Of a stretch of 64,000 nt of DNA, positions 22,329-24,333 are shown piece by piece. The notes below the pieces were generated by a model. That model was not told the origin of the DNA and made no database searches. It was given only the letters and a program-made list of their open reading frames with translations. This stretch comes from Malikia granosa. GTDB lineage: Bacteria > Pseudomonadota > Gammaproteobacteria > Burkholderiales > Burkholderiaceae_C. Position numbers and translations under genes: made by a program. The number at the start of each line of letters is the position of its first letter. Position 1 is the first letter of the stretch. The stretch lies in contig NZ_PVLQ01000012.1 in NCBI RefSeq assembly GCF_002980595.1, positions 186,001 through 250,000 of the forward strand. Direction: 5' to 3'.

Positions 22329-22378
22329 GGCAGTCCTTGGAAAAATACGCTTCCCTGCGCGGTCGTGGCGACGACAGG

Positions 22379-22484
22379 GGCTGCCCAGGCGAACGGCTGA
22401 AATGGCTGTGCGCTCCCCAGTGGTAATCCCACCTCGGCAGGGACGGCAAGGCCAGCCCCGACCTATCGCCAGTCGCGCACGGGC
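22379..22484 (-). ncRNA. ZTP riboswitch (pfl motif) upstream of glyA
   Basis: Read on the minus strand, the leader has the two conserved blocks of the pfl/ZTP aptamer: GCGACTGGCG near 22470-22479 and, after GAGGTGGGATTACCACTGGGG and AGCG, the second domain GCCGTTCGCCTGGGCA near 22384-22399. Both match the published consensus as I know it, including the GCCTGGGCA that pairs back with CTGGCG. Downstream a stem CCCTG...CAGGG with inner TCGT/ACGA is followed by TATTTTTCC, a plausible expression platform 50 nt before the glyA start. glyA is a known target class of this riboswitch. Confidence 0.88.
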
Positions 22485-22493
22485 GTGATTTTA

Positions 22494-23339
22494 TCAGGAG
22501 CTTTGCAGCTTGGCCGTCGCGGGGACGCCGGCGTCGGCTTCGAGCTCGCGCTTGTCGTCGGCCGACTTGGCCGGGGTGGCTCGCACCAGCACCGGGGCGC
22601 CGGCATTGATCGGCAGCTTGGCGCCGCGCGCCACGCTGCGCAGCCGCTGCTGCTCGGCCATCACCTTGGCGACATAGCCGTTGCCGTCGCTGTCGACCGC
22701 GCCGACATAGCGGCGCAGGCCGCCCTCGATCGAGCCTGCATTGCGGATGCAGTCCTGCAGCACCTGGACACCGACGCGCAGGTTGACCAGCGGGTCGAAG
22801 GCGGCCTGCTTGCCGCCGAAGTCCTCGTACTTGTCCGAATGCACGCGGGTGAGCACCTGCATCAGGCCCTGCGCGCCGACCGGACTCTGCGCAAACGGAT
22901 TGAAGCGCGACTCGATCGCCATCACGGCCAGGATCAGGGTCGGATCGAGCTTGATCCGGCTGCCGATGGCAAAAGCCTCGGCGACCAAGGCGCCGACCGG
23001 CTCGGGGGCGACGCGGTACCTGCGGCTGATCCAGCTCGCGACCTGGGCCTGTTCCTTGGGCAGGCTGGTGGCCAGCACGGCATCGGTGCGATCCTTGGAC
23101 TCGTCCTCGACCGTCGCTTCGCTGTTCTGGCGTTGTTGCAGCCAGCCCAGCAGCTTTTGCTCGGCATCGCCGCGCAGCTCCGGATTGGTCAGCAGGATCA
23201 CCGTGACCAGGGCCAGTCCCAGTCCGAGCAGGGCCATGCCACTGTGGGTGACGGCATACAGGACCTTGAACAGGCGATCTGCGGAGGAACGCAGGAAGCC
23301 GGGACAGGGGGTAGGCCAGGTGGAATTTTGCGCTGTCAT
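22494..23339 (-). CDS. Membrane-anchored lytic transglycosylase (SLT domain)
   Basis: 281-aa peptidoglycan lytic transglycosylase. An N-terminal transmembrane segment near residues 33-52 anchors it; the SLT fold follows with catalytic Glu143 in AVMAIESRFNPFA, then SPVGAQGLMQVL and a tail with VGAVDSDGNGYVAKVM. There is no lipobox, so it is a signal-anchor protein and not a lipoprotein. ATG 23339 is preferred because AAGGAG lies 7 nt upstream; the open frame continues to 23405. The upstream 560 bp hold no protein gene. Confidence 0.85.
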   Translation of the reverse strand: MTAQNSTWPTPCPGFLRSSADRLFKVLYAVTHSGMALLGLGLALVTVILLTNPELRGDAEQKLLGWLQQRQNSEATVEDESKDRTDAVLATSLPKEQAQVASWISRRYRVAPEPVGALVAEAFAIGSRIKLDPTLILAVMAIESRFNPFAQSPVGAQGLMQVLTRVHSDKYEDFGGKQAAFDPLVNLRVGVQVLQDCIRNAGSIEGGLRRYVGAVDSDGNGYVAKVMAEQQRLRSVARGAKLPINAGAPVLVRATPAKSADDKRELEADAGVPATAKLQSS

Positions 23340-23484
23340 AGCACACTCCTTTCTACGCAGCACCCTGGCCTGGGCTCGGGTGTGCCTTGATTGGGGGGTC
23401 GCCATTGAATGCCCTTTCGGGTCATCAACTTAGCCGGGTTCGGCAGCGTCTCAAATGCCTCCCGCAAGGGCAGGCGAGGCGAAT

Positions 23485-23560
23485 ATTAGGGATCTTTAAA
23501 TAAGTAGTCAATACTTACAAATCAAATTTATATATCTAAAGGAAATATAAAGAGCCGAAT
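23485..23560. other. AT-rich intergenic stretch
   Basis: About 75 bp of strikingly AT-rich sequence (runs such as TTTATATATC and GGAAATATAAAG) inside an otherwise GC-rich region. It lies between the transglycosylase start and the candidate RNA below, within a 559-bp interval (23340-23898) that contains no convincing protein gene. It could be an H-NS target or a promoter region. Confidence 0.6.
23501..23517. promoter_or_regulatory. Operator-like inverted repeat
   Basis: TAAGTA (23501-23506) and TACTTA (23512-23517) form a perfect 6-bp inverted repeat around GTCAA inside the AT-rich stretch, the size expected for a dimeric MarR/TetR-type regulator. The regulator is unknown. Confidence 0.4.
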
Positions 23561-23666
23561 CGTCATGGCTTCAGCCCTGGCAACGCCAGAAAAAACGACT
23601 ATCGAAATGGGGTGGCAAATTGAAAAAAACTGCTTGCCGACCGCGCTCCGAGGCCTTAACCTGAGC

Positions 23667-23850
23667 TTGCCTGTGAGCCACAGGTGTTCCGCCCGCACCG
23701 AGGTCCGTCCTCCCTGCCAGGCGTAAAGGATGGGGGCAATCCCTTGCTCCCACGGTCGTCAGGACAGCAAACTCCGGCGGCCGCCTTGGCATCTGCAGCC
23801 CGCAGATGCGAAGACCCCGGCGGGTTCAGCCTGCCGGGGTCTTTCTGTCT
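23667..23850 (+). ncRNA. Candidate structured small RNA with own terminator
   Basis: An interval of about 185 nt with three clean stem-loops and a terminator: CCTGTG/CACAGG with a 3-nt loop (23670-23684), GGGGGCAA/TTGCTCCC with loop TCCC and one G-U pair (23732-23751), GCATCTGC/GCAGATGC with a 5-nt loop (23789-23809), then GACCCCGGC/GCCGGGGTC (23813-23841) followed by TTTCTGTCT. A possible promoter is TTGCCG (23634-23639), 16 bp, TTAACC (23656-23661). No protein frame fits. I could not match it to 6S, tmRNA, SRP, RNase P or a riboswitch class I know. Confidence 0.45.
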
Positions 23851-23898
23851 GGGTTCTGTGTGCCTGGTGGCTGGCTCATGCCAGCGCGGGAGCGGGCT

Positions 23899-24333
23899 TC
23901 AGCGGCTGGTTGCCTTGCGCCTGATCTCGGCGATATAGGCCTGGCCGTCCGGCGGACGACCGGCGCGCTGGCTCTCCCAGATCATGCGGCCGAGCGACTC
24001 CATGACTTCGTGGTGCGCCTCGTGCAGCGAGTCGCGCCGGGCGGCCAGCAGCTCGACCGCCTGCCGGATGCCGGGTGGCTGGTCGATCGAGCATTGCTCG
24101 CTGATGCTCAGGTGCATCGACAGGTGCAGGAAGGGGTTTTCGCGGGTGTCGCTGGGCTGCTGCATCTGGCGCAGTGCTTCGTCGACATCGGCCAGGTCGG
24201 CGTGGTACTCGGGGTGGCGCTGGATCCATTCGCTGGCCAGCAACTCGATCGCTTCCATCGGCTGGCCTTGCTGGTGCTTGGCATGGACGGCGCAGAAGAA
24301 GCGCCGCACGTCGGCTTGAGAGGGTGTGAACAT
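23899..24333 (-). CDS. DUF1841 family protein
   Basis: 144-aa soluble protein of a family widespread in beta- and gammaproteobacteria and of unknown function. Landmarks are the start MFTPSQADVRRFFCAV, the core NPFLHLSMHLSISEQCSIDQPPGIR near residues 66-91, and HEVMESLGRMIWESQR near 107-122. Many His and Glu residues (HLSMHL, HEAHHEVME) would suit metal binding, but this is only an inference. ATG 24333 is the family start; the gene is divergent from a TauE gene with a 60-bp spacer. Confidence 0.9.
   Translation of the reverse strand: MFTPSQADVRRFFCAVHAKHQQGQPMEAIELLASEWIQRHPEYHADLADVDEALRQMQQPSDTRENPFLHLSMHLSISEQCSIDQPPGIRQAVELLAARRDSLHEAHHEVMESLGRMIWESQRAGRPPDGQAYIAEIRRKATSR

Follow-up and report, generated by a model that had tools for sequence, protein, structure and literature searches.

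Introduction

The motif Burkholderiales-1 (Weinberg et al. 2010, PMC2864571) comes from the same order as the DNA analysed here and has no Rfam accession, and in the table of that paper its classification carries question marks. A repeated DNA element, the BRE repeat of Bordetella, also occurs in Comamonadaceae; PMC3110155 gives 1-29 repeats per genome and a length of 75-91 bp in Bordetella. In the open PMC literature we recognised no description of a Comamonadaceae small RNA, or of an RNA matching the one presented below.

In the window (the whole stretch of 64,000 nucleotides of Malikia granosa DNA that was analysed), a gene-free interval, already reported by an initial annotation, separates a lytic transglycosylase (SLT) gene from a DUF1841 gene. 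Comparison of genome sequences indicates that this interval almost certainly holds the gene of an independent small structured RNA which is kept across the family of the window. The most likely reading is that positions 23668-23849 of the plus strand encode an RNA of ~175 nt.

Results

The RNA gene (23668-23849, plus strand) is predicted to give a transcript of about 175-181 nt, consisting of five hairpins, P1 to P5, and a terminator hairpin. Its usual 5' neighbour is the divergent SLT gene (22494-23339, minus strand; PF01464, E 2.7e-14), whose start, judged by eye from a Shine-Dalgarno sequence, is at 23339, the longest open reading frame beginning at 23405. The 3' neighbour in the window, but not everywhere, is the convergent DUF1841 gene (23899-24333, minus strand; PF08897, E 1.3e-51). 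The predicted transcript 23669-23849 folds with -100.8 kcal/mol, compared with -74.0 +/- 4.4 for 200 dinucleotide shuffles, none of which folded as well (z -6.05); the z score is -5.09 for the stretch 23625-23850, and folding of the minus strand, taken over the longer interval 23406-23870, is weaker (z -2.77). The initial annotation had described three stem-loops at this place: stem-loops are indeed there, but three was too low a count, five hairpins being predicted on the plus strand in addition to the terminator hairpin.

Two covariance models were used, R1 built from five same-genus copies and R2 from 31 homologues, namely those with E <= 1e-5 among 35 matches. Of 92 loci, 87 passed an E of 0.002, with L167, L151, L194, L197 and L169 dropped; the 87 rows include close relatives and one identical pair (L030, L076), amount to an effective number of ~61 at 80% identity, and contain weak members, such as L193, L158 and L152, that may be false homologues. 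Seven duplicate rows were removed before the homologue listing was read by eye. Across the 87 homologues, 90.9% of the cells of P1-P4 pair, double changes are present in 34 of 38 pairs, and covariation is 0.527, where column shuffles give 0.169 +/- 0.006 and slid controls 0.053-0.081 (for 31 homologues it is 0.563, and 0.160 when shuffled); both A7 and A9 are alignments made by fitting to the model, a procedure that favours the model's structure, and A9 includes 30 rows, of its 87, that trained R2. The structure of the fitted alignments agrees with the slid controls, with a five-copy MAFFT alignment made with no structure fitting, where 4 pairs out of the 63 predicted, located in P1, P3 and P4, carry double changes, and with a scan of all column pairs of the 87-row alignment, in which 11 model pairs rank before the first non-model pair. 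Compensatory changes, which the initial annotation had proposed to look for in the stems of homologous intergenic regions, are therefore present.

The 5' hairpin P1 (23668-23686, like all the following on the plus strand) shows double changes in all 8 of its pairs, with 86.2% of cells paired in the 87 homologues. Hairpin P2 (23690-23723), the length of which differs among genera, has double changes in 11 of 11 pairs and 86.9-97.2% of cells paired (helices 2-4). The same proportion of changed pairs, 11 of 11, is found in P4 (23753-23783; 85.0-90.7% paired in helices 6-7), which carries an apical GGAC-loop-CUCC in which the two C's flanking the loop are 95-97% conserved. The most conserved element is P3 (23732-23751; GGGGGCAA UCCC UUGCUCCC), with 99.6% of cells paired and double changes in 4 of 8 pairs: its base varies by compensation and the sequence of its tip is near-invariant, the apical GCAAU..UUGC positions being 98-100% conserved. 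Tallied by alignment columns, the P3 loop reads UCUC, UCUG or UCCC in 53 of the 87 homologues, and its last two letters vary. A search for P3-like sequence elsewhere in the own genome gave a single match, inside accA, and hence no second site that would reveal a partner. The weakest part of the structure is P5 (23789-23809), predicted in the window and in the five Malikia-type copies, where it shows no double changes; a consensus fold of 86 aligned 3' flanks recovered the terminator stem and not P5, and other genera have, as judged by eye, hairpins of different sequence at its place.

A scan of all column pairs for pseudoknots returned one isolated extra pair (A9 columns 185-248) and no helix. 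This pair, which lies outside the model and brings together the 3' side of P2 and the P4 loop, covaries at 0.81, as strongly as model pairs do, and might reflect either a tertiary contact or an effect of lineage.

The promoter predicted for the RNA consists of a -35 element TTGCCG (23634-23639) and a -10 element TAACCT (23657-23662) on the plus strand, placing the start of transcription at about 23669. For the initial annotation's possible upstream promoter, with elements 16-17 bp apart, a promoter-like pair is present, the one assigned here having 17-bp spacing, and it has counterparts in the same place in homologues: of 87, 72 (73 in a tie-affected listing) have their best promoter-like pair placed so that the -10 element starts 11-12 nt before the model, a count that averaged 3.85 and never exceeded 10 in 100 mononucleotide shuffles. 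This position supports the prediction that the transcript begins at the foot of P1. In the window the promoter is a weak match to the consensus (4 + 3 of 12), and it went unlisted in a generic scan because TAACCT keeps only T1, A2 and T6; the simple rule of the scan likewise gave no terminator, because the T's lie partly inside the stem. The strong hairpin with a T-rich tail that had been noted at the 3' end is an intrinsic terminator (23810-23849, plus strand), formed by a 16-pair hairpin at 23810-23844 and the tail TCTTTCTGTC. In the lower stem of the terminator each of eight pairs is formed in 82-86 of 86 homologues, and a T-rich tail follows in many of them as read by eye. Under a stricter rule, demanding a perfect stem and a T tail, the terminator is found in 63 of 87 homologues, and the RNAs so delimited are 163-224 nt long, with a median of 173 nt.

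Upstream of the promoter, at 23619-23625 of the plus strand and -49 from the start of the RNA model, stands the motif ATTGAAA, a candidate activator or UP-type site. Between -38 and -130, 39 of the 87 homologues have this word, and in 50 mononucleotide-shuffled sets no 7-mer exceeded a count of 7. The starts of ATTGA[AG]A cluster at -48/-49 (22) and at -69 to -71 (17), places about two helical turns apart, and 10 of the 17 records in the latter cluster are named Hydrogenophaga, so that the two-place clustering may be one single shift. Both the count of ATTGAAA and this clustering of ATTGA[AG]A at -48/-49 or about -70 suggest a bound activator. In L146, L049, L148 and other homologues a CAATC word was also seen by eye, ~20 bp upstream of CATTGAAA, and the two look like an inverted pair of sites.

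In a BLAST search of 100 genomes (the own one included), long matches occurred in all four other genomes of the genus, at 78-87% identity, and short matches in 7 further genomes, all at the P4-to-terminator end. The own genome contains one full BLAST match, the second being the terminator's own reverse strand, and one R1 match. With R1, 36 of 299 family genomes, from 18 genera by our count, match at E <= 0.001, where ~0.3 genomes would be expected (the E-values being rough), and the best match outside the genus has an E of 1.6e-10. Relaxing the limit to E <= 1, a level at which chance matches are expected, raises the total to 88 genomes (57 of 141 genera), and 8 of these genomes give extra weak matches. 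Since the family search is restricted to 12 first-look candidates in each genome, these counts are no evidence of absence. A pattern scan of named genomes yielded 56 loci, 36 of which R2 confirms, together with 3 of 4 loci from an order-wide R2 search. The confirmed records that bear a genus name are from Hydrogenophaga, Malikia, Caenimonas, Ramlibacter, Rhodoferax and Comamonas, plus one metagenome-assembled genome (MAG) that bears the label Chitinophaga. The first six genera belong to the Comamonadaceae, and all genus-named confirmed matches bar that MAG are from this family. The MAG in question (L094, CALPRQ020000017.1), labelled Chitinophaga pinensis, carries a Malikia-type RNA with a core equal to that of L021, and its label looks wrong.

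Of 299 family genomes, 59 contain the exact P3 pattern and 3 a reversed-pattern control; of 300 genomes drawn from the order, 10 contain the P3 pattern, 4 in the family and 6 outside, where the control gave none. The six genomes of other families (L211, L212, L217-L220) have the P3-type pattern without the rest of the RNA, and around it R2 gave only E >= 0.04 in 18 kb; this small excess is unexplained and may consist of chance or unrelated hairpins. The order-wide R2 search gave matches at E <= 0.1 in 6 of 300 genomes, of which one, with E 0.06, lies outside the family; this search too is restricted to 12 first-look candidates per genome and gives no evidence of absence. The best 30 of 68 DUF1841 loci, all of them from other families of the order, had no R2 match at E <= 1. 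Among these DUF1841 loci, the P3-pattern loci and the order-wide genomes, R2 thus revealed no convincing homologue outside the family.

The SLT gene adjoins the RNA in 27 of 31 loci. Approached from the other side, 70 of 143 SLT matches were examined, the best 30 and 40 chosen by hand. The RNA lies divergent to the SLT orthologue in 23 of the best 30 loci (7 of these had trained R2) and in 14 of the 40 hand-chosen ones, which is not a prevalence as several genomes already matching R1 had been left out. In 33 of the 70 (7 of 30 and 26 of 40) there is no RNA match at E 0.01, and at these loci the RNA is lost, moved or too diverged. Four loci (L041, L042, L043 and L045) carry the RNA with no detectable SLT gene within about 1.5 kb on either side. 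The gene downstream varies: it is the convergent DUF1841 gene in the window, a gene on the RNA's strand for DUF748 (L059, L046) or DUF349 (L068), and in L041 a cytochrome c gene on the strand opposite to the RNA. By eye, the downstream open reading frame of L042 resembles that of L041; the one in L030 has no Pfam match.

When 4227 Rfam families were searched at their gathering cut-offs, none matched the RNA, and the window gave only a ZTP riboswitch and two tRNAs; 40 homologous loci, among which L027/L028 and L034/L107 carry the same RNA, yielded nothing beyond ZTP riboswitches and a single tRNA. With permissive settings 12 hits below threshold were obtained in 23400-24000: 11 fall on the stretch of P5 and the terminator, and the twelfth, a minus-strand hit of 13.6 bits to a CRISPR repeat model, lies elsewhere in that region. 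Permissive scans of two homologues produced one and five weak hits, and in none of these three stretches did a hit come near a cut-off. The initial annotation had put forward a candidate undescribed structured RNA of no known class. As far as Rfam goes, this Infernal-type search bears the claim out, for the RNA is without a family match in the window and in the 40 loci, and its stems are conserved with compensatory changes. The ZMP/ZTP riboswitch of the window (22376-22486, minus strand, 63.1 bits) is situated just upstream of glyA, and ZTP riboswitches recur in the stretches analysed around homologues of the RNA, at 9 loci in one set of 20 and at 7 in a second set of 20.

Discussion

The comparison of homologues supports the strand of the predicted RNA, its hairpins P1-P4, a sigma-70-type promoter, an intrinsic terminator and a usual place divergent to the SLT gene. 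We regard as probable the overall explanation that this is an independent, family-wide small RNA, acting in trans via a protein at P3/P4. According to this model the RNA would be transcribed, perhaps with the help of a factor at ATTGAAA, and would accumulate as a compact, end-protected molecule of ~175 nt that acts in trans as a structured RNA. The tips of P3 (GCAA-UC-NN-UUGC) and P4 (GGAC..CUCC) would be bound by an RNA-binding protein, which the RNA may in turn titrate or scaffold. The near-invariant letters in the tip of P3 are paired, and they therefore point to recognition of a folded tip rather than to a pairing seed; the tip of P4 keeps GGAC..CUCC. Taken by itself, protein recognition through P3/P4 is a tentative proposal, to which we give somewhat less than an even chance on these sequence comparisons, and yet we favour a protein-binding RNA over a base-pairing one. 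One may speculate further that the molecule is a housekeeping-like RNP RNA found throughout the Comamonadaceae, whose near-invariant P3 tip docks a dedicated protein, although this extended form of the model is rather doubtful.

The alternative that survives best, although we consider it unlikely, is a trans-acting antisense sRNA, assisted by Hfq or ProQ, that pairs with mRNAs via pyrimidine-rich tips, perhaps at Shine-Dalgarno sites. The intrinsic terminator with its T-rich tail in many homologues would suit such an RNA, as would the mostly UCNN loop of P3 and the CUCC at the 3' side of the P4 tip. However, the model contains no long unpaired conserved stretch, and in P3 it is the last two loop letters that vary and the stem letters that do not. 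Exposed anti-Shine-Dalgarno words are, moreover, rarer than in shuffled sequence: fully unpaired CTCC, CCTC or TCCT is found in 13 of 87 RNAs compared with 38 of 87 shuffled ones, each RNA being folded alone and compared with one mononucleotide shuffle of itself. The same counts bear on a second alternative, an RNA that titrates CsrA/RsmA. Several hairpins within a short RNA would be in keeping with such titration, but unpaired GGA is not enriched (11 of 87 folds against 14 of 87 shuffled, counted in the same way), no repeated loop GGA was found, and the one conserved GGA, in P4, is base-paired in the consensus. The rarity of anti-Shine-Dalgarno words and the lack of GGA enrichment lower both readings, and CsrA/RsmA titration is left as highly improbable.

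A similarly slight probability attaches to a cis-acting role, in which the structure would be a leader, an attenuator or a 3' UTR fold, or else the leader of the SLT gene on the minus strand. The RNA does adjoin SLT in many genomes, and a separate promoter-like pair for SLT stands at 23511-23483 on the minus strand. Yet a transcript from this minus-strand promoter would start after the RNA and exclude it from the SLT mRNA, the minus strand folds less well, and the promoter of the RNA itself is on the plus strand and fixed in place. The SLT pair (TTGACT-17-TAATAT), which would serve the SLT gene, occurs in two overlapping versions in 23300-24000, compared with 0.2 expected. As for a gene downstream, an open reading frame follows on the RNA's strand in 12 of the 16 loci that have one, which makes a leader role unlikely rather than excluded; the terminator stem nevertheless comes before a gene of differing kind and strand, and in the loci checked no single conserved same-strand gene, such as a riboswitch or leader would have, lies downstream of the RNA. 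The initial annotation had left the choice between a regulatory RNA and an unusual leader, and of the two it is the regulatory RNA that fits better, in view of the terminator stem and the varying next gene.

A divergent or duplicated 6S RNA is less probable still. The length is similar and some 6S-like words can be picked out by eye, but the consensus is a row of local hairpins with no long closing stem around a central bulge, and the best match of the own genome to the 6S model RF00013 lies on another contig (C79; all 187 positions, E 6.9e-6). This C79 match, at 37.5 bits below the cut-off of 46.4, is the genome's probable 6S RNA; at E <= 0.1 the model finds matches in 51 of 60 genomes (the own one included), 27 of them over the cut-off. 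In 23400-24000 RF00013 gave no match at E <= 10, and 6S identity was rejected for the RNA. A repeated DNA palindrome of the REP/BRE type, finally, would account for the palindromic arms, but it is barely credible beside the fixed promoter of the homologues, and it was rejected on the single full match, with no dispersed copies, in the own genome.

We thus return to a trans-acting structured RNA, for which a new small RNA family of a known general kind is a promising assignment, as judged from Rfam and from literature in which Burkholderiales-1 is known to us by its table listing alone. Strong selection is likely to act on a structured RNA that dozens of genera have retained with compensatory changes and with its promoter fixed in place, and the unvarying tip of its hairpin points towards a partner that binds RNA. 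Genome annotation would gain a new covariance model. Among the families of Rfam, the best sub-threshold hit is sX11 (RF02230), of whose model two stems are fitted by P5 and the terminator hairpin; the score of 25.6 bits (22.4 in L030) is, however, below the cut-off of 70, and only the P5/terminator stretch matches. With trans-encoded sRNAs the RNA shares a sigma-70-type promoter, an intrinsic terminator, an intergenic location, a single full match in its own genome and a size of ~175 nt, but it differs from them in being almost fully base-paired and in having its highest conservation in a hairpin tip, not in an unpaired seed. With 6S RNA (RF00013) it shares the length class and the status of an independent gene, whereas the Rfam match and the closing stem are absent. 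If the proposed docking of a dedicated protein at the P3 tip is true, the RNA would be a housekeeping-like RNA comparable in kind to 6S or CsrB, acting on a protein and not on mRNAs.
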